Assembly (NCBI GenBank): GCA_017631325.1
Contig: JAGBTM010000025.1
Coordinates: forward strand, 66,620-112,404
Length of the DNA stretch: 45,785 bases
From: Clostridia bacterium
GTDB taxonomy: Bacteria > Bacillota > Clostridia > Oscillospirales > CAG-272
Direction of reading: 5' to 3'
Shown here in pieces: positions 21,675 through 30,278 of this stretch. The position numbers were made by a program, and so were the translations under genes. Each line of letters opens with the position of its first letter. Within the stretch, counting starts at the first letter, position 1. The notes beneath the pieces are model-generated. The model was given only the letters and a program-made list of their open reading frames with translations, ran no database searches and was not told where the DNA came from.

Positions 21675-21716
21675 AGGAAAGCCATCACGCGTGTGTGATG
21701 GCTTTCCTCTGTTTTT
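21675..21716. terminator. Bidirectional intrinsic terminator after the accessory cluster
   Basis: AGGAAAGCCATCAC (21675-21688) and GTGATGGCTTTCCT (21695-21708) form a 14-bp perfect stem with a 6-nt loop. The plus side is followed by CTGTTTTTT and the minus side by TTTGCAT. It lies 26 nt past the stop of the bilin-reductase-like gene and separates that cluster from ruvC. Confidence 0.85.
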
Positions 21717-21741: not shown

Positions 21742-22389
21742 TTATTTTTCCGTGCCGAAAAGCACTTTTTTGAATAGGTCTTTAGTCTTATCGTAGCCGA
21801 GCGCCTTCTTGAATACGTCGGTTGAAGGACCTCCGTTTGTAAGAAGCCCGTTTACGTACACGTTAGCCTTTTTCACCTTTTCGTCAGCATCACAGCCTGC
21901 ATACGCCGAGGCGCAAAGGTACTGCCGAAGATGCTCGGAAGCCAAGGAATTCAGTTCTTCTGCCTTGTTTTTTCTCTCTTTTTTCGAAATACTTGAAGGC
22001 AGCTTGATGTTATCATACCAATGCTCGCCGGGATCTCTGTCCGTAAGGTGAGAGTATTTTTCCTTAGTTCTATCGAGCTGTGTAAGGTCGCATTTTTCAA
22101 GCATCGTATCGTAGAGCTCGACTATTAAGGTATCGTTGCCCATAGCTAATATGCGGTCGTAGGAATATAGTGGCAGGTCCACGTACATCGGATTAATGAT
22201 AAGCGTATCCATCTTCATCAGTCCGAAAAATCCCTTCGCAGACATAACCGATACGTGACCGAGCCCCTCAGCAATATACGCTAGTACGGTAAATTTCATA
22301 CCCGAGACCTTGAGTGAAGAAAATTCACAGGGCTCAAGCGCTTTAAGAGGATATTTTTCTCCGATTATCCTTAAGAGCTTGTCAGTCAT
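21742..22389 (-). CDS. Protein resembling ferredoxin-dependent bilin reductases
   Basis: I do not recognise this 215-residue protein as a named family with certainty, but by eye it follows the layout of ferredoxin-dependent bilin reductases such as PcyA (about 250 residues). Residues 60-93 (MKMDTLIINPMYVDLPLYSY, then DRILAMGNDTLIVE) align with PcyA's FPEPLYGLPLFGCD region. That puts Asp78 at the position of catalytic Asp105, but PcyA's His88 is not conserved. A central W-containing stretch and the C-terminal GGPSTDVFKKALG...LFKKVLFG match the family's D-x-T-R-x-V-L-x-x-A-F-G...VLFD end. It is soluble and the last gene of the cluster, overlapping the membrane protein gene by 4 bp. The bilin substrate and the fold are inferences. 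Confidence 0.55.
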   Translation of the reverse strand: MTDKLLRIIGEKYPLKALEPCEFSSLKVSGMKFTVLAYIAEGLGHVSVMSAKGFFGLMKMDTLIINPMYVDLPLYSYDRILAMGNDTLIVELYDTMLEKCDLTQLDRTKEKYSHLTDRDPGEHWYDNIKLPSSISKKERKNKAEELNSLASEHLRQYLCASAYAGCDADEKVKKANVYVNGLLTNGGPSTDVFKKALGYDKTKDLFKKVLFGTEK

Positions 22390-23021
22390 GCGTTTACCCC
22401 CTCGTGAAGCTGAACGTCCTTAAGGCCGCCCTTATGAAGAAGGTATACTCCAACTAGCAGAGAGCCCTGTCCTACGACGTTCGTGCCCTCTGCAATCCAG
22501 TTCATAGCCGACTCTGCAAAATTCTTTGAGGAAAGATATCCCATGCAGAGCGAGCATACGAATGAGAGTACGAAGATTGCGATATATCCCGGCTTTTTAA
22601 GCTTTGCCGCAATAATACAAAGTATGGCGTCCATTATACCGAGGCCTGCTACCATAAGCCCGACGAAAACGAACGTTCCGGAAAACACGGGCGGTGCTAC
22701 CGAAAGAAAGGTCTTTTTCGACGGCTTGCCCATGAGCATAATAAGTATTCCGATGCCTGCAAGCAAAAAGCCTATTGACTGTACGGGGAAAAACATCGCG
22801 TTAAGTGCTGTAAAATCGCAAGCGCCCAAAGCATAAAGAAGCTTCCAGGTTGCCTTGAGTACTCCTGCTATCGTAACGTCGATTACACCCGCCGAGAAGA
22901 GCGCAAATGCGCCCTTCTCCATTTTGCTATATAAGTCGCGAACGAGAATTGCCGATGCGAGCGCAAAAAATATTACGGGTACGTAGTCGACCAGAGCCAT
23001 AGAAACCGAAAAATCGTTCAT
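22386..23021 (-). CDS. Unknown multi-pass membrane protein
   Basis: I do not recognise this 211-residue protein. It has six or seven hydrophobic segments (about 9-24, 36-54, 64-80, 86-98, 109-130, 136-155 and 176-195) with short loops and a short soluble end. A conserved-looking SKNFAESAMNWIAEGTNVVGQGS lies before the last helix. The start at 23021 is preceded by AAGGAG; an ATG 24 bp further upstream is less well placed. The gene overlaps the next one by 4 bp (ATGA), which suggests it works with the bilin-reductase-like protein. Confidence 0.7.
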   Translation of the reverse strand: MNDFSVSMALVDYVPVIFFALASAILVRDLYSKMEKGAFALFSAGVIDVTIAGVLKATWKLLYALGACDFTALNAMFFPVQSIGFLLAGIGILIMLMGKPSKKTFLSVAPPVFSGTFVFVGLMVAGLGIMDAILCIIAAKLKKPGYIAIFVLSFVCSLCMGYLSSKNFAESAMNWIAEGTNVVGQGSLLVGVYLLHKGGLKDVQLHEGVNA

Positions 23022-23098
23022 ATTTTTCTCCTTATGCGAAAACACAAAAAGCTACAGTAAATTCTGCCTTATTTTTTTGTGGGGTTTCGCAGAATTTG

Positions 23099-23911
23099 TC
23101 AATCTTTCTTGTTAAGGTGGTAGATGGGAACGAGAGGAATTATTATGGGAGTTTTATTTGCATATTCGTTGTATTCCTCTTTTTCAGCATAGCGAGCCAT
23201 CTGACGCTTCTCGAGGCGCTGCGCTCCGTTGAACATTATGTAAACGATGCAAACGTATGCAAGAGCTGCGCAAATCCACTGCCCTACACCCTCGTATGCT
23301 GTGATACCGCTGATAAACACGCCCGTCCAGAAGATTATCTCACCGAGGTAATTGGGGCAACGGACGATTTTATAAAGGCCCTTGGTTGCCACCATATCGG
23401 GACGCTCCTTCTTCTGCACCGATTTCTGATTATCCGCAACGCTCTCAAGGACGAGGCCGAATACAGACACCGCAAAGCCGATAATGGGAAGCGTGATATC
23501 GGTCGAGCCGTTTTCATAGCGGAAGAGCATGGGACTTACCTGCATGACGTAGAGCACGGCAACAACCAACCAGATGGTTACGAGAACGAACACGGGCATT
23601 TTCTTTTCACTACTCTTCGCGAGAGTTTCCTTAGCTACGTCGGTTTTCTTGAAGGTTACGCTCTTTAATTCACGAATGAGGAGAAATCCTGAAAGACGTG
23701 CGCCGTAGGCGATAAAGAGTGCCATTTCGATAAGCAAAATCCAAATAGGAGTTTCCGTGGGGTTGACGAGGTACATAATAAATACGGCAATACCGCCGCC
23801 TGCTACAGCAAAGCCGTAGCCTATTGAAAGAAAGTATACGAACTTATAAAATCCAACGGCGCACATAACAGCGCAGACTGCAAAAAGTATGAGTAGAAGT
23901 GACCAAGGCAT
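23099..23911 (-). CDS. Membrane protein with steroid-5-alpha-reductase-like (DUF1295) domain
   Basis: This 270-residue protein has about seven membrane segments and the C-terminal signature of the DUF1295/SRD5A superfamily: GLYKIVRCPNYLGEIIFWTG near 185-204, followed by a helix and EEYNEYANKTP. Relatives include steroid 5-alpha reductases and isoprenylcysteine methyltransferases, which act on hydrophobic molecules in the membrane using NADPH or SAM. Which one applies is not clear here. The start at 23911 is preceded by GGAAAGGAG; the ORF's earlier TTG lies inside that site. It begins 1 bp after the reductase gene stop. Confidence 0.75.
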   Translation of the reverse strand: MPWSLLLILFAVCAVMCAVGFYKFVYFLSIGYGFAVAGGGIAVFIMYLVNPTETPIWILLIEMALFIAYGARLSGFLLIRELKSVTFKKTDVAKETLAKSSEKKMPVFVLVTIWLVVAVLYVMQVSPMLFRYENGSTDITLPIIGFAVSVFGLVLESVADNQKSVQKKERPDMVATKGLYKIVRCPNYLGEIIFWTGVFISGITAYEGVGQWICAALAYVCIVYIMFNGAQRLEKRQMARYAEKEEYNEYANKTPIIIPLVPIYHLNKKD

Positions 23912-23912
23912 T

Positions 23913-24779
23913 TTAGTTTTTCTCCTTTCCAAAGTAGCCCTTTATATATTCCTTAAAGCTTCCCTCTCCAACCACGGTATCTCCAACGAGGTCGTGGCTG
24001 AGCGTCCACTTTGAAAATAGAATTATGTGGCTCTTACCCGCTTTCTTAATCTTAGGAAGCTTTGCGAGCAGACCGAAGAGCCAGATGGGAGCCCATTTAA
24101 TTTTGAGGGGCTTCTCTGCCGCCTCGAAGCACATGGCTGCCATTTCTTCGTAGCTGTAGGTTTCCTTGCCGCCTACGTTGTAGGTTACGTTAGTATCCAT
24201 CATGTGCTCTACGATAAAGCGAGCGAACTCGGGACAGTCAACCACGTTTGCACGAACCGTGCCGTAGCCCTTAAGAAGCTGCATTTCGCCCTTATCAACG
24301 TAGGGCTTGAACACCTTCGCGATATCGTAGAAATATCCTGTGGGACGGTGGATAACGTAGTCCATATCGCCCTTTTTGATTTCCTCTTCGAGAAGATACT
24401 TTGCGTGTAGCATAGGAACCTTATCAGCACCGGGCTCGTCGCAGGAAATAACCGATATGTAATTGAATTTTTTAACACCGGCGCGCTTTGCTTCCTCGTA
24501 AATATTCATATTGCCCTTATAGTCAATGTCATAAGCGGTAACAACGGGCGATGCTCCCGTAAGCCCTACGGTAGAAATAACTACCTCTGCGCCCTCGCAA
24601 AGTCCCTCGACGGTCTCGGGCTTGGTTGCGTCAAACTGACGGAAGGTGTATTTACCCTCGCAGCCTGCAACCTCACACTCGCGAAGGTCGGCTGCAACTA
24701 TCTCGTGTCCGTCCTCAACAAGACATTTGAGTACTTCTCTGCCGAGATTACCGAATGCACCAAAAAGTACAACTTTCAT
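23913..24779 (-). CDS. NmrA-like NAD(P)-binding reductase, similar to BciA 8-vinyl reductases
   Basis: This 288-residue protein is an atypical SDR with the nucleotide-binding loop GAFGNLGREV at 8-17. Its later segments, VVISTVGLTGASPVV, DIDYKGNMNIYEEAKRAGVK, AKYLLEEEIKKGDMDYVIHR and PTGYFYDIAKVF, match by eye the pattern of BciA-type divinyl chlorophyllide 8-vinyl reductases and other NmrA proteins. A wide range of substrates is known for this superfamily, so the vinyl-reductase reading is a suggestion. SD AAGGAG precedes the ATG. It lies 119 bp after the esterase gene. Confidence 0.7.
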   Translation of the reverse strand: MKVVLFGAFGNLGREVLKCLVEDGHEIVAADLRECEVAGCEGKYTFRQFDATKPETVEGLCEGAEVVISTVGLTGASPVVTAYDIDYKGNMNIYEEAKRAGVKKFNYISVISCDEPGADKVPMLHAKYLLEEEIKKGDMDYVIHRPTGYFYDIAKVFKPYVDKGEMQLLKGYGTVRANVVDCPEFARFIVEHMMDTNVTYNVGGKETYSYEEMAAMCFEAAEKPLKIKWAPIWLFGLLAKLPKIKKAGKSHIILFSKWTLSHDLVGDTVVGEGSFKEYIKGYFGKEKN

Positions 24780-24898
24780 TTTAATTTCTCCTTATTTTAT
24801 TGTTTAATTGCTGTTTTGCCGTATTTAACGTAAATCCACCGATTTCGGAAGGGTATGCTTATCGCAAGACGCTCACACCCTCCGTGGTGTCATGGGAA

Positions 24899-26239
24899 TT
24901 ATTCTCCGGGCGCTTTGTTTGTGAACATAGTAACCCAGAGCTTGAATTTAGAGGGGTTTGCCTCTTTTGAGGGCTCGTCGCCCATAACGAGCGCACGCTC
25001 ACCGCCCTCGCTCCATTCGGTGTGTACGTCTGTATTCGGGCTTGCCGTCTTGGCAAAGGCGCACAGACGCTCCGACATTTCCTCTGCGAGTGCATAATCC
25101 CTCTCGTCAAATGGACGCCAGCCGTTTTCAAGCGTTCCGAACCAATACCAAAGGTCTGCCGAATGCCACGCGCCGTGATTATCGCCGGGCAGGTTGCGGT
25201 TGAAAAACCACAGATACGCGGGTGTTTTCTGCGCCTTGCACCAGCTCTTCGCCATCGAGTAAAGAATGGGAGGCATAACGTCGTGACTTGTAGTGCCTAT
25301 CATATAAGGGATTTGGTGCTGCTCGCCTGCTGCGAGTGTATCATATCCACTCTTAACAACGAGCTTGCCGTCGATACAGGGGGAGCAACCGCCACCCATA
25401 GACATTTTTTTGTTCTCCTGCCAAACAGTAAAGAGCTTTTCGACGGGGAGTGCGCGAAGCTCGTCGAGATTTTTTGCTCCGCACTTATCCATTATCATCT
25501 TCCAGAACTCGTAGTGCTTTTCGGGTGCCGATGCTGAAAGCATCCTTGAAACACCGCCACCACTCGACATAACGGCCTTGTGAAAGAGCCCCCTTGAAAG
25601 AGGTGAGAGGCAGTGCTGCTGTACACTCATAGCGCCCGCGCTCTGTCCCATAATAGTGATATTGTCGGGGTCGCCGCCAAAGGCCTCAATATTATGCTTG
25701 ACCCACTTAATAGCGGTAAGCTGGTCGTAAAGACCGTAGTTTCCCACAGTGCCTGCTTCTTCCATAAGCTCAGGAAGCACTGCAAAGCCGAGAGGGCCAA
25801 GTCGATAATTCAGAGTTACTCCGATAACACCCTTCCGTGGCCATACGGGTGTGTCAAAATGCTTTTCGTGTCCACAGCCACCTGTATAACCGCCACCGTG
25901 TATGTAAACGATGACGGGAAGCTTGCCATCAGCTTTTTCGGGTGCGAAGACGTTTAAGAAAAGACAGTCCTCGCTGTATGAGTATTTTTCGCCCTTTCGA
26001 AATTCGTTGTAGTAGAATATCTTTTTGGGCATCTGCTCCTCGTCGTAGAAGGAACGGGGCTGCGGGGCGCACGCACCGTACTCGGTTGCGTCGTATACGC
26101 CCTCCCAAGACGTAACCTCGACGGGATATTCAAAGCGGCCTGCGGTAGCGTAGCGTATTCCCTTGTAGGCAACTACGCCATCAAGTCTCGTTCTGACGCC
26201 TCTTAGCTCACCACACGGAGTTTTGATAATATATTCCAT
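24899..26239 (-). CDS. Type B carboxylesterase
   Basis: This 446-residue alpha/beta hydrolase has the type B carboxylesterase layout: SEDCLFLNVFAPE near 89-101, the oxyanion loop VIVYIHGGGYTGG near 109-121, nucleophile Ser in IMGQSAGAMSVQQH near 196-209, and a late GAWHSADLWYWFG that carries the likely catalytic His. It hydrolyses esters of small or hydrophobic molecules. There is no signal peptide, so it acts inside the cell, consistent with the import gene 31 bp upstream. The start at 26239 follows AAGGTG. Confidence 0.88.
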   Translation of the reverse strand: MEYIIKTPCGELRGVRTRLDGVVAYKGIRYATAGRFEYPVEVTSWEGVYDATEYGACAPQPRSFYDEEQMPKKIFYYNEFRKGEKYSYSEDCLFLNVFAPEKADGKLPVIVYIHGGGYTGGCGHEKHFDTPVWPRKGVIGVTLNYRLGPLGFAVLPELMEEAGTVGNYGLYDQLTAIKWVKHNIEAFGGDPDNITIMGQSAGAMSVQQHCLSPLSRGLFHKAVMSSGGGVSRMLSASAPEKHYEFWKMIMDKCGAKNLDELRALPVEKLFTVWQENKKMSMGGGCSPCIDGKLVVKSGYDTLAAGEQHQIPYMIGTTSHDVMPPILYSMAKSWCKAQKTPAYLWFFNRNLPGDNHGAWHSADLWYWFGTLENGWRPFDERDYALAEEMSERLCAFAKTASPNTDVHTEWSEGGERALVMGDEPSKEANPSKFKLWVTMFTNKAPGE

Positions 26240-26270
26240 ATTTTTCACCTTCTGCACTTGGATTAAGTAA

Positions 26271-27701
26271 TTACGCCTCGGTAATCTGTGCAGGCTCCGC
26301 GGCAGGCTCTGCTACGGCTTCCGTATTCTTTCTTGCGGCCATCTTCGAGCGAATTTCAGGAGTTATGTTCCAAACGAACTTGAACGCTGCCCAAGAGCCG
26401 AGAATGAATATCGCGGGAACGAGGACGCAAAGCACCTTGAAGCCGAAGATAGTACCACCGGTCTGCACCTCACTCAGAGGCTGATAGCCTATCCAGTCAA
26501 GCGCAAAGAAGCTGAAGCCAAGACCTACCGTCTGACCGATACGGCGCGAGAGGTTGAAGGTACCGTAAATCGAGCCCTCGGTTCTCTTGCCCGTTATGTA
26601 CTCGTTGAAGTCGATAGCCTCGCCTACAAGTCCCCACTGCATCTGAATGGAAACCATTGCCATACCCGAGCCGATACCGAGAATTACACCGTGAACGAGA
26701 GGCGAAACCTCCATAAAAAGATGCATAGCGAAAAGGCCTGAGCAAATAGCACCGCCTATAAGAAGCGAGTACCTGATAAGCTTCTCAAGACCTAGCTTCT
26801 TACACATGAAAGGAACTGCAACCATAGAGCCAAGCATAAAGGGGGCCGAGAGGGCCGATGCTATGGTCTTGTAGGTTACGTCGTTATACACTGCTGAATA
26901 CATATACATGCTGATGTTCTCGGTAAGGTACTGCATAGTGCAGATGCAGATGCCGTGGATACAAAGCGCAACGAAAGCACGGTTCTTTTTAACAACGTCG
27001 ATAATATCAGAGAACTTAATATCGTCAGCCTTGGTATCCTCGTTGACTACGGTACGCTCCTCGGTAAAGAAGTAGTGAAGAAGACATACCAGAAAGCCGA
27101 TAGCTGCGCATGCAACACCGGTAATTATGTAACCTGTAGAGGTCTTGTCACCGAACAGGCCGATGATAACGGGACCTACCATACCGGGTATCATATTACC
27201 AAACATAGAGCCGACGCCTCGAGCAGACGAAAGAGATGCACGCTCAGAGTCGTTTTTGGACATTGCAGAAAGAAGCGAGCCCATGGGAATGTTGAACATA
27301 GTATATGACGCTTCGTACAAAATCTTGAATGAGAAAAGAGATACTAGAAGCGGAATACCCTCAAGGAAGGTGGGCACGGTCCACATGGCTATGGCGCTAA
27401 TTGCAAGAAGGGGCGTTGCGCGAAGAAGCCAGGGACGGAATTTACCGTTCTTGTTGCGGTGCTTAACGAACGCCTTGTCCATAAGTGCGCCCATCAGCGG
27501 GTCGTTTACAGCGTCCCAAATGGTCCAGATAATAGTAAGAATACCCATGACGGTAGCATTTATTCCAAGCACGTTAGTGCAGTAAATTGAGAAAATGCTC
27601 GCCATAAGCGCAAAGGTCATACAACCACCAAAGTCACCGAACATATAGCCGAGCCAATGCTTAGTGGTGAGAGCTCCGTTTGCAGTTTTTTTGTTATTCA
27701 T
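26271..27701 (-). CDS. GPH-family (MelB-like) MFS transporter
   Basis: This 476-residue protein has about twelve hydrophobic segments and the glycoside-pentoside-hexuronide cation symporter features: GDFGG near the N-terminus, WDAVNDPLMGALMDK with a conserved Asp-Pro region, and KFRPWLLRATP. Family members import sugars and glucuronides with Na+ or H+. The C-terminal tail is an Ala/Glu/Pro stretch. Its substrate is unknown; in this cluster it may import the compound that the esterase and reductases act on. SD GGGAG precedes the ATG. Confidence 0.88.
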   Translation of the reverse strand: MNNKKTANGALTTKHWLGYMFGDFGGCMTFALMASIFSIYCTNVLGINATVMGILTIIWTIWDAVNDPLMGALMDKAFVKHRNKNGKFRPWLLRATPLLAISAIAMWTVPTFLEGIPLLVSLFSFKILYEASYTMFNIPMGSLLSAMSKNDSERASLSSARGVGSMFGNMIPGMVGPVIIGLFGDKTSTGYIITGVACAAIGFLVCLLHYFFTEERTVVNEDTKADDIKFSDIIDVVKKNRAFVALCIHGICICTMQYLTENISMYMYSAVYNDVTYKTIASALSAPFMLGSMVAVPFMCKKLGLEKLIRYSLLIGGAICSGLFAMHLFMEVSPLVHGVILGIGSGMAMVSIQMQWGLVGEAIDFNEYITGKRTEGSIYGTFNLSRRIGQTVGLGFSFFALDWIGYQPLSEVQTGGTIFGFKVLCVLVPAIFILGSWAAFKFVWNITPEIRSKMAARKNTEAVAEPAAEPAQITEA

Positions 27702-27956
27702 TACTTTTTCTCCCTAGAATTTATATTTTTTAAAATTAGCTTATTAAATTTCGCCAGTTAAAATTTGCAAGTTAAGTTTTACTTATTTAAATTTTACTTA
27801 TTTAAATTCGCCATTTAAATTTTCTATAAGTAGTAGAGATTTTCGATAAATTTTTACAAAGCGGCACGTCTCAGATGCTATCGGCAAGGCCATAAGCGGC
27901 TGCCGTGCGCACTGCGAGAGACTGCTTTGGGTCATTATCTTCAAAAAGGCTTTAAT
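27702..27956. other. AT-rich intercistronic region with short direct repeats
   Basis: No gene is supported. CTTATTAAATTTCGCCA (27740-27756) and CTTATTTAAATTCGCCA (27797-27813) are near-identical direct repeats, and ACTTATTTAAATTTTACTTA (27781-27800) contains a further partial copy. Around 27855-27925 a GC-richer stretch can fold (AAAGC...GCTTT, CGGCA...TGCCG), perhaps a terminator or processing stem for the flavin-reductase gene. I see no convincing promoter for the transporter. Confidence 0.5.
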
Positions 27957-28883
27957 TTACTTTTTGTTCTTTTCCTTAGAGCGCTTGTCGTTGATAATCT
28001 TCATGTGCTCTGCAGTTATAAGCTCAACGCCATTCTCCTTTGCCCAGCTCACGCAGCCCTTAAGAACGAGAGACAGGAACACGCGCGGTACTCCGAGTAT
28101 GGTTTCAAGCGCCTCGTCGGTAAACTTCACCTTGTCGTCTGCGCGGTCAGCAGCATAGCGTACCGACTCGATGGTAGCGCGACGCACCTGAAGAAGCTCT
28201 GCTCTCATTCTGGTTTTTCTGTGGAACCAGAAGTTTTTGCTGTCGCGATAGCCGTAGTCGACGGGAAGAGGTGGAAAATCCTTGGCTCTTACACCGTTGA
28301 TGATAGCGTCGCTGTACTTCTTCTTCATAAGAATTTTGTCAACGCGAAGAATAAAATGCGCACCGAACTTAGAGGTAATGCCGTTGAAATCGTGATAGGG
28401 CCCCTCATAGCCGTTAAGCTCACCCGCAAGGTCCTTGTCTGCGCCGTCAAGCTCGCGCATCCAGGTACATTCGATAGCCTCGATAGCATCGGTAAGCACC
28501 ATAGGACGCACTTCGCCCGTCTGCTCCTCTATCATACTCTTTTCAAGCTTGAAATTACACTTAGGCATTTTCTCCGACGGCTTGTCGCCGGGCCAAGAAA
28601 GCTTTACAGCCTCCTTGAAGCTTTTGGGGCTGTCATCAATGAAATTCAAGGTGCACTTTCCGTTTCTCAGAATATTCTGAGCTGTGTTCGATGAATTTCT
28701 GCAGTGCAGAAGCATTGCGTAGTAGTCCTTGCCCGCTACGTAATATGGCTGAACGAGAGAATACGGGCCGAGGGTAGTCGAGCCGTCCTCGCACAGCGTG
28801 CTTATGATGACTGTAGGCATCGGGAAAAACAGCGAGGTCTGATAAAAGTTATCCACGATGCGAAGATTTTCAAAGCTGCTCAT
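27957..28883 (-). CDS. Flavin-reductase-like protein with C-terminal PCP_red-like domain
   Basis: This 308-residue protein begins with a split-barrel FMN-binding domain of the flavin reductase family (residues about 10-205; PMPTVIISTLCEDGSTTLGP and HCRNSSNTAQNILRNGKCTL are typical). The last 50 residues (WFHRKTRMRAEL, then FTDEALETILGVPRVFLSLV and ITAEHM) follow the pattern of the proto-chlorophyllide reductase 57-kDa subunit (PCP_red) C-terminal domain. It probably uses FMN to move electrons to a partner or substrate. The link to tetrapyrroles rests on the domain name and is not proof. SD AAAGGAG precedes the ATG. Confidence 0.75.
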   Translation of the reverse strand: MSSFENLRIVDNFYQTSLFFPMPTVIISTLCEDGSTTLGPYSLVQPYYVAGKDYYAMLLHCRNSSNTAQNILRNGKCTLNFIDDSPKSFKEAVKLSWPGDKPSEKMPKCNFKLEKSMIEEQTGEVRPMVLTDAIEAIECTWMRELDGADKDLAGELNGYEGPYHDFNGITSKFGAHFILRVDKILMKKKYSDAIINGVRAKDFPPLPVDYGYRDSKNFWFHRKTRMRAELLQVRRATIESVRYAADRADDKVKFTDEALETILGVPRVFLSLVLKGCVSWAKENGVELITAEHMKIINDKRSKEKNKK

Positions 28884-28945
28884 TTGGGTTTTACTCCTTT
28901 GTTTTTTATTTTATTTTTTAAAACTTATAATCACAAAAACGAAAA

Positions 28946-29461
28946 TTAGACAATTCTGCCTAGTATTTTGTATATATTTTCGAATTTTTCACCCTCTACC
29001 GTCATTCTCAGGAGCGCTTCGGCCAGGAAGTTTGAAATGAAGGGTGTGACTCTGTCTTCTTCCTTTAAGAGAGGTGATATAATCTTGGAAATCTGCCCGC
29101 AAAGCACGGTGTGCCACTGCGAAAACTCGCTGTAAAAAACCTTCTTTGCATCGGGGTCTGAAAAAAGCTTCTCGTGCTTTTTGGCAAAGGCGCGCAGCTC
29201 GTCGTAGATGCATTTAAAAAGCTCCTTGACGCTATCGGCGCACGTGCTCTTTATATTGTTAAACGCCCGGTACCAATCCTCTGCGACAAATGATGCTATA
29301 AGCATATCCTTGGATTTAAAGTAGTTATAAACCGTACCCGTAGCAAGACCGCACGCACTTGCCACTGAGCGAATAGTTGTGCGAGCGTATCCCTGCTCTA
29401 TTATCTGCCTGTTGGCTTCTTCAAGAAGATGCTCTTTAACGTTCTCAATAATCTTTGGCAT
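28946..29461 (-). CDS. TetR-family transcriptional regulator
   Basis: This 171-residue protein has a TetR-type N-terminal helix-turn-helix: about 27-55, TTIRSVASACGLATGTVYNY followed by FKSKDML. The C-terminal ligand domain is unrelated to any ligand I can name. It sits between the hydrolase gene (9 bp upstream) and the flavin-reductase-like gene, all on the same strand, behind a promoter with a 14-bp palindrome at its start site. It is therefore a good candidate to repress the whole cluster until its ligand appears. SD AAGGAG precedes the ATG. Confidence 0.9.
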   Translation of the reverse strand: MPKIIENVKEHLLEEANRQIIEQGYARTTIRSVASACGLATGTVYNYFKSKDMLIASFVAEDWYRAFNNIKSTCADSVKELFKCIYDELRAFAKKHEKLFSDPDAKKVFYSEFSQWHTVLCGQISKIISPLLKEEDRVTPFISNFLAEALLRMTVEGEKFENIYKILGRIV

Positions 29462-29470
29462 ACTCTCTCC

Positions 29471-30216
29471 TTAGACGTTTATAAATTCGGTTACGTATTC
29501 TGCTGTTAAAAGAATTTGTTCTCCTGCCGTAATGGTTGCCTCGCCGTCACCTTCCTGCTCACCGTACATACCGAAGCCAGCGTGGTTACCACCGTCTATA
29601 ACCACCTCGCGTACTGTCGGAGGCAAAAATTTGCTTGCTTCAGAGTAATTCCCGCGGTTCAATACTCCGTCGGCGCTGCCGTAAATAGAAATCGCCTTAT
29701 TGCATATAAGCGAGACGTCCAGAGAGGGATAAGAGGCGAGCAAAACCAACCCCGAAAGGCTCTCGTAGTGGCTGGAAAGGTAGATAGAAGCCACCGCGCC
29801 ACCAAGCGAATGACCTCCGACGTACCACGTCTTGATGCCCGTGTACTCTGCAATAACCTTATCAGCAGCGTTAATATCGAAAAAGGCAAGGTTCAGGGGC
29901 ATCTCAACAAGGGCGCAGAATACGCCGTGCTCTGCAATAGCGCGCATAAGAGGGATATACGCCGTGTACTCAACCTTACCTCCAGGGTAAATATGAAGCC
30001 TACCTCGGCATTCTCGTCGCCAAAGGCGACGTATCCGTTATTTACGCGCTCGCTAACGGTAAATCTCTCTGAAAAGACGGATATCGCCCAGGCGTCTGCA
30101 TGATAGTAATCACTCACAAAAGCTACGCACGCACCAAAAAGCAATGCGAGTACAAAAAAGACAGACGCGAACGTTATTATGAACTTTTTTCTACCTTTAT
30201 TTATATATTCAGACAT
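29471..30216 (-). pseudogene. Membrane-anchored alpha/beta hydrolase broken by a one-base frameshift
   Basis: Two frames together give one hydrolase of about 248 residues. The first half has an N-terminal membrane helix (about 12-35), then reads GDENAEVGFIF. The second half begins YPGGKVEYTAYIPLMRA and carries nucleophile Ser in GGHSLGGAVA, Asp in YGSADGVLN and His in GGNHAGFGMYG. The frames join if one A is added on the plus strand to the run at 29989-29991 (minus strand TTT to TTTT). Both halves look conserved, so it is a recent mutation or a sequencing error. It is the first gene of the operon, 9 bp before tetR. Confidence 0.8.
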
Positions 30217-30230
30217 AATTCACCTCTTTT

Positions 30231-30244
30231 ATGAACCCGTTCAT
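30231..30244. promoter_or_regulatory. Palindromic candidate TetR operator
   Basis: ATGAACCCGTTCAT has two 6-bp arms (ATGAAC/GTTCAT) around CC. It covers the expected transcription start, 6 bp after the -10 box, so a bound protein would block initiation. The operon encodes a TetR-family protein as its second gene. Confidence 0.65.
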
Positions 30245-30249
30245 TTTAT

Positions 30250-30278
30250 ATTATACTATTTTTCACCAACTTTGTCAA
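30250..30278 (-). promoter_or_regulatory. Consensus promoter of the hydrolase-tetR cluster
   Basis: On the minus strand TTGACA (30273-30278), a 17-bp spacer and TATAAT (30250-30255) match the sigma-A consensus at every position. A promoter this strong with an operator on its start site suggests tight repression. Confidence 0.88.

Follow-up and report, generated by a model that had tools for sequence, protein, structure and literature searches.

We analyzed a stretch of 45,785 nucleotides (hereafter the window) from the genome assembly GCA_017631325.1 of a Clostridia bacterium (Oscillospirales, CAG-272; contig JAGBTM010000025.1, positions 66,620 to 112,404), which contains a cluster of genes for reductase-like and membrane proteins behind a predicted TetR operator. 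The assembly comprises 1.93 Mb and the window forms the end of a 112-kb contig. Nine products are encoded on the minus strand between 30216 and 21742, in the order α/β hydrolase, TetR, a 308-residue flavin-reductase-like protein (FlavRed), GPH transporter, carboxylesterase, an atypical short-chain dehydrogenase/reductase (SDR), a DUF1295 membrane protein, a membrane protein of 219 residues and a protein of 215 residues (Table 1). An original prediction, made from the nucleotide sequence alone, had described them as a nine-gene cluster running from a TetR-operator promoter to a terminator and had proposed that they serve the uptake and reduction of a tetrapyrrole or other hydrophobic compound. 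Promoter, operator, common strand and terminal hairpin are all present as described; the hydrolase has to be amended, as it is split here into two overlapping frames. Its single-frame relatives in three other loci (L040, L055, L060) have 245, 260 and 254 residues.

Table 1. Features of the cluster; positions are counted from the first nucleotide of the window.
Feature	Position	Strand	Evidence and remarks
Sigma-70-type promoter, TTGACA-17-TATAAT	30250..30278	-	12/12 consensus matches
TetR operator, TGAACCCGTTCA inverted repeat	30232..30243		Sole copy in window; just past -10 box
α/β hydrolase, N-terminal piece, broken frame	29893..30216	-	One hydrophobic segment, 9-38
α/β hydrolase, C-terminal piece, second frame of same gene	29471..29947	-	PF12695 E 2e-45; GHSLG motif
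TetR family repressor (predicted)	28946..29461	-	TetR_N E 1.1e-13
FlavRed: flavin-reductase-like domain and possible PCP_red-like C-terminal tail	27957..28883	-	Flavin_Reduct E 1.2e-5
GPH/MFS_2 transporter, apparent local insert	26271..27701	-	MFS_2 E 4e-62
Carboxylesterase with GQSAG, apparent local insert	24899..26257	-	COesterase E 8e-89
NmrA/NAD_binding_10 atypical SDR without YxxxK	23913..24779	-	PF13460 E 9e-16
DUF1295 membrane protein related to SRD5A	23099..23932	-	DUF1295 E 6e-28; Steroid_dh E 2.8e-7
Small membrane protein, ~5 hydrophobic segments	22386..23045	-	Hydropathy; assigned to no known family
215-residue putative remote homologue of bilin reductases	21742..22389	-	PF05996 match by family, not by window copy alone
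Hairpin terminator	21675..21708		15-pair stem

A scan of named genomes yielded at least 552 relatives of FlavRed, the best 80 of which were kept and are the 80 loci referred to throughout. In 30 of them, two titled Roseburia or Lachnospiraceae, an SDR gene adjoins FlavRed; these are the related operons, and denominators below 30 refer to those with a sufficiently long stretch for the gene in question. The DUF1295 gene is present in all 24 SDR-bearing operons with room, relatives of the 219-residue membrane protein in all 22, and the 215-residue gene in 14 of 20, as well as in two operons on shorter stretches. The genes for TetR, FlavRed, SDR, DUF1295 and membrane protein are contiguous in L030, L033 and L034, each from a different family of the order, and a short contig (L007) carries SDR, DUF1295, membrane protein and a 218-residue product in this order. 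The conserved core is formed by TetR, FlavRed, SDR, DUF1295 protein and membrane protein, often joined by the 215-residue protein. We consider the cluster firmly established as a real, conserved operon, which answers positively the question, raised with the original prediction, whether the neighborhood is maintained across Clostridia.

The distribution of the operon is patchy, since the SDR occurs in 19 of 196 genomes of the window's own family at E up to 1e-40 and is missing, at the same limit, from the four other listed genomes of the same genus. Searches across the order found the 215-residue protein in five, FlavRed in 11 and the 219-residue protein in six of 245 genomes, figures that include the own genome and partial matches; of 398 genomes drawn from the whole phylum, one, the own genome, had FlavRed. 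Among annotated relatives of the core, the closest one found is carried by pNP243, a plasmid of Butyrivibrio fibrisolvens D1, whose record gives the bovine rumen as source; in it TetR, SDR and DUF1295 are joined by a shorter membrane protein (L127 8439-11277), with no adjoining FlavRed. Plasmid searches with the 215-residue protein gave no match, and those with FlavRed gave three partial matches in Rhizobium.

A scan of all 80 loci located the operator TGAACNNGTTCA upstream of 28 of the 30 SDR-bearing operons. In 22 of these its distance to TetR is 25-96 bp; in the other six it lies 763-798 bp from TetR and precedes a hydrolase gene, the arrangement seen in the window. TetR itself is also encoded in 28 of the 30, and the two operons that lack the operator (L042, L062) are without TetR as well. 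By composition, about 1.1 sites would be expected in the 1.13 Mb scanned, so that the upstream sites clearly exceed chance; in the upstream sequences inspected by eye, a TATAAT-like box precedes the operator. Among the 50 loci without SDR, a site was found upstream of FlavRed in L050, which has a TetR gene, and in L074, and elsewhere in L066 and L085. The operator and the terminator named in the original prediction are both present.

In the own genome there is one further copy of the operator, and it lies within a 224-residue open frame, for which reason TetR fits the role of a local repressor predicted to act on a single operon. A wider TetR regulon was considered and rejected. Three further copies were found in genome G150 and one in G044; the one inspected in each is situated within a coding frame, by eye of an ABC-permease-like and a DnaA-like gene, respectively. 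A backwards control pattern gave 0-2 sites per genome.

For the analysis of selection, we used relatives covering at least 80% of the query. Synonymous sites are saturated between loci (median pS, the proportion of synonymous sites that differ, 0.71-0.78), and purifying selection keeps all seven genes tested, with median ratios of nonsynonymous to synonymous differences (pN/pS) of 0.11 for FlavRed, 0.19 for SDR, 0.23 for DUF1295, 0.27 for the membrane protein, 0.36 for the 215-residue protein, 0.43 for the hydrolase and 0.44 for TetR. FlavRed is the most constrained of the seven. Across L040-L119 it is 86-94% identical to the query despite saturated synonymous sites, and 50 of its 80 copies are without SDR and stand in varied contexts. 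High identity at saturated synonymous sites means that the protein is very constrained; a recent spread is ruled out as the source of the identity by the median pS of 0.78.

In a tree built from 83 FlavRed proteins, copies from operons and lone copies are intermixed, and FlavRed was therefore discarded as a marker of the operon alone. The tree has 15 changes compared to a mean of 26.2 in shuffled data (0 of 500 shuffles as low); the bootstrap is not settled. In the 50 SDR-less loci, a hydrolase is found near FlavRed in six, TetR in one and a DUF1295 gene in one. The hydrolase forms a pair with FlavRed, without TetR or the remaining operon, in L073, L077, L084, L095, L102 and L112, and in L094 (9001-10745) FlavRed is directly followed by a more distant DUF1295 protein (44%), with the other operon genes unmatched.

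Relatives were kept for family alignments if their match, on the plus strand and free of internal stops, spanned 90% or more of the query. From the resulting lists, together with the window and other loci, we aligned 18 of 19 rows for the 215-residue protein (L060 left out) and 22 of 30 each for SDR and DUF1295; the alignment of the membrane protein combined 10 of its 22 listed rows with six others. The FlavRed alignment had six rows and that of its tail seven, drawn from 11 genomes found. The Flavin_Reduct domain (PF01613) was matched by all six FlavRed members (best E 9.5e-8), the window copy scoring 26.0 bits against a cut-off of 27 (E 1.2e-5). The PCP_red domain (PF08369) was matched by four of the seven tails when E values up to 10 were accepted, a permissive threshold (best E 9.6e-4), and in one of the six full-length proteins (E 0.017); the curated cut-off was not reached, the one score available being 12.5 against 32.5. 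Part of the family may thus carry a PCP_red-like tail, a weak resemblance to subunit B of the light-independent protochlorophyllide reductase. FlavRed would differ from that enzyme in that its tail is fused to a flavin-reductase-like domain and in that none of the nine products gave a match to a nitrogenase-like subunit.

The original prediction had called the 215-residue protein bilin-reductase-like. With the window copy alone, searches of the domain library and the Protein Data Bank (PDB) returned nothing convincing; the family as a whole bears the assignment out. The profile of the ferredoxin-dependent bilin reductases (FDBR; Fe_bilin_red, PF05996) matches nine of the 18 members at a permissive threshold of E 10, with a best E of 8.2e-7 and an alignment that extends over residues 10-213 and over 14-227 of the 228 profile positions. 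When nine members were scanned singly, seven matched at E up to 1 and two did not; five of the seven matches had E < 0.01 and four of these five were nearly full length.

We further compared the family with hhalign to a profile of eight bilin reductases associated with phages, comprising PebS-like rows from seven of 31 phage records and one PcyA adjoining one of them. The comparison gave an E of 2.8e-4 and a score of 33.7, with a core match over profile columns 118-217 that extends to columns 29-221 of 222 upon realignment. None of 300 block shuffles reached this score (maximum 24.8), the reversed family scored 14.9 and three unrelated families scored at most 17.4. Asp78 of the 215-residue protein aligns with the aspartate of the phage PCFGMD motif, which we take to be catalytic in the FDBRs; this aspartate, within a central P-x-x-x-D motif, is found in all 18 members of the family and in all eight phage proteins. 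Searching the own genome with PF05996 did not find an FDBR, the one weak match being on another contig and with internal stops, although a Synechococcus control was positive in the same search.

Judged from these comparisons, the 215-residue family can be assigned firmly, at the level of the family, to the FDBR superfamily as a remote member with putative bilin activity, and it probably represents a new branch of that superfamily. Its likeness to PebS and PcyA is collinear over most of the protein; it differs from them in its setting, gut Clostridia, and in its genomic company, an SDR and a DUF1295 protein.

The SDR belongs to the NmrA family (PF13460) and has a GAxGxLG motif in 22 of 22 members. 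A pattern scan past the SVI/L strand found the YxxxK motif in none of the 22. It also matches 3Beta_HSD above the cut-off (E 2.3e-7), and its profile relatives in the PDB include KtrA, SimC7, NDUFA9 subunits and triphenylmethane reductase. The sterol demethylase model SdmB is matched weakly by three of the 22 SDRs, and their NCBIfam matches include no chlorophyll model, although the library itself may hold none. The likeness to the 8-vinyl reductase BciA that had been put forward in the original prediction is therefore regarded as putative. A plasmid-borne homologue from Acaryochloris (33% identity) adjoins Rieske and PaO-family genes (L128 2983-5205), which we note as a lead only; of its own 176 plasmid matches, the 40 listed are SDR-type or NDUFA9-like proteins or lack an annotation, and no chlorophyll enzyme is named among them.

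DUF1295 proteins are widespread and many roles have been suggested for them. The DUF1295 protein of the operon scores 31.1 bits with Steroid_dh, above the cut-off of 22.6, and a PNY[LF]GE motif is present in all 22 members. The QELP motif, by which SRD5A1 and SRD5A2 recognize their substrate, is found in none of the 22. The best solved relative of the family is 7c83, a 3-oxo-5-alpha-steroid 4-dehydrogenase, matched over a short motif region. For the 219-residue membrane protein, the alignment of its relatives suggests a start at 23021, and the only domain matches are weak ones to EutH, below the cut-off.

A ruminant host is named for 52 of the 80 loci (sheep 15, roe deer 15, goat 13, water deer 5, water buffalo 4); the remaining 28 comprise 17 SIG, 7 RUG-type and 4 other loci. 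Two alterations of chlorophyll in ruminants are on record. In grazing animals, gut bacteria convert chlorophyll to phytoporphyrin, a product that causes photosensitivity in livestock with liver dysfunction (PMC3907879), and the rumen hydrogenates phytol to dihydrophytol, a step described as initiating the formation of phytanic acid in ruminants (PMC7551613). Among the literature matches listed, as judged by titles and abstract openings, no paper names genes for chlorophyll or phytol reduction in the gut and none describes this operon. A study on FDBR origins (PNAS 2023) includes heterotrophic bacteria in its discussion; its main text contains none of the words Firmicutes, Clostridi and rumen (PMC10151467).

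We favor the explanation that the genes constitute a TetR-repressed, inducible reductive operon of herbivore-gut Clostridia, most likely for chlorophyll-derived tetrapyrroles, and assign it a probability of roughly 0.4. TetR would sit on the operator until a hydrophobic ligand releases it, and membrane-anchored or local esterases would liberate the substrate. The FDBR-like protein and FlavRed with its PCP_red-like tail would bind and reduce the tetrapyrrole, and a conjugated double bond, either of the pigment or of its phytol side chain, would be reduced by the NAD(P)-binding SDR together with the DUF1295 membrane reductase. This order of steps is presumed, as are the electron donors, and the benefit could be that of an electron sink or a detoxification route. 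Chlorophyll-derived tetrapyrroles are our best single guess for the substrate because of the resemblances to FDBR, firm at the family level, and to PCP_red, which is weak, the largely ruminant setting and the operator-bearing promoter.

Several observations weigh against this explanation. The highest PF05996 score obtained, 29.3 bits in L081, falls short of the curated cut-off, which is 31 bits, nine of the 18 members, the window copy among them, have no match, and the hhalign probability for the phage FDBRs is 41. No FDBR chain was found in the PDB at E up to 10, either with a single sequence or with the family profile. The profile search ranked a bromodomain first (E 0.0044), a match that we set aside as unlikely in a bacterium, although it is not disproved. 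The 215-residue gene was not found in six of the 20 operons with room (in one, L067, there is a match to a C-terminal fragment), and family copies lie apart from the operon in two genomes (L006 9770-10429, L008 150-821), the latter upstream, by eye, of acyltransferase-like and Mur ligase-like genes. FlavRed occurs without SDR in 50 of the 80 loci. The PCP_red-like tail of the original prediction is matched weakly in part of the family but not in the window, whose own tail is not among the matches at E 10. The best curated matches of the SDR are not chlorophyll enzymes. Finally, the share of ruminant hosts is biased, because the 80 loci are those closest to the query.

The alternative that fares best, though we consider it unlikely, is that phytol reduction is the main function. 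The constant pairing of SDR and DUF1295, present in all 24 operons with room and found without adjoining FlavRed on the Butyrivibrio plasmid, is reminiscent of DHRSX, itself an SDR, and the membrane reductase SRD5A3. In dolichol synthesis these two saturate a prenol via its aldehyde in three steps (PMC11607601), and the pair would for this reason also suit phytol: the SDR would oxidize phytol to phytenal, DUF1295 would saturate the double bond at position 2,3, and reduction of the product by the SDR would give dihydrophytol, the product on record for rumen biohydrogenation (PMC7551613). The DHRSX and SRD5A3 pathway acts on polyprenol in animal cells. In the operon, the SDR is an NmrA-type protein, with YxxxK absent from all 22 sequences. 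The broad occurrence of DUF1295 proteins, with their many suggested roles, further argues against this alternative, which leaves the FDBR-like protein and the PCP_red-like tail unexplained.

The favored chlorophyll explanation could accommodate both halves of the molecule, ring and phytol. In its most specific form, which we regard as improbable, this would be a dedicated anaerobic chlorophyll-reduction operon of the herbivore gut, in which the FDBR-family enzyme and a new flavin/PCP_red protein act on the ring and the SDR and SRD5A-like reductase on phytol. If true, it would supply the genes for the two old observations in ruminants, the formation of phytoporphyrin and of dihydrophytol. More generally, the operon would provide candidate genes for the alteration of chlorophyll by gut bacteria and would extend the bilin-reductase superfamily into gut Clostridia. 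The proposal is testable, since a named strain, Butyrivibrio fibrisolvens D1, bears part of the core on its plasmid.

Rather more doubtful is the reduction or detoxification of another hydrophobic enone or ester from plants, such as a phenylpropanoid or terpenoid. The esterases and a local TetR with a single promoter-placed site in the own genome would fit such a role, as would triphenylmethane reductase and SimC7 among the profile relatives of the SDR, but the resemblances to FDBR and PCP_red would then be without a reason.

Less probable again is the reduction of bile pigments, with biliverdin as substrate of the FDBR-like protein. The FDBR homology of the 215-residue family speaks for it, and herbivores excrete biliverdin and bilirubin, in variable amounts (PMC13252198, a preprint). 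The known reduction of bilirubin in the gut proceeds through BilR and BilV, however, and BilV, the described bilirubin vinyl reductase encoded near bilR, is an Old Yellow Enzyme (PMC13252198). No such family was matched among the nine products; what the two systems would share is the proposed theme of gut Bacillota that reduce tetrapyrroles. The existence of BilV also makes less likely the conversion of vinyl to ethyl bilins that had been put forward in the original prediction. Moreover, the DUF1295 protein and the esterases would be left unexplained by bile pigments.

The least probable alternative is a reduction of steroids, sterols or bile acids by the SRD5A-like protein and a 3-beta-hydroxysteroid dehydrogenase-like SDR, which has on its side the matches to Steroid_dh and 3Beta_HSD above their cut-offs, the annotation of the solved DUF1295 relative and the weak SdmB matches, but conflicts with the lack of QELP and of YxxxK in 22 of 22 proteins each and does not account for the FDBR-like protein.

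The remaining genes of the window cluster are less regular in their occurrence. Neither the GPH transporter nor the carboxylesterase (27701-24899, between FlavRed and SDR) was matched in any of the 80 loci, and they consequently look like a local insert. They had been counted among the cluster members in the original prediction and now fall outside the conserved unit, which rules out the nine genes as one ancestral unit. On either side of the two genes lies a spacer, one of 255 bp (27702-27956) and one of 119 bp (24780-24898), so that internal promoters are possible; the 255-bp spacer ahead of them (window 24899-27956 together with the genes) is AT-rich and looks repetitive. A hydrolase gene on the same strand lies within reach of the operon in 12 of 27 related operons with upstream room, at varied positions. 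In L055, L060, L082, L040, L103, L081, L091 and L072, its place shifts between a position before the operator, the opposite strand, the inside of the operon before the membrane protein, and a position past the 215-residue gene.

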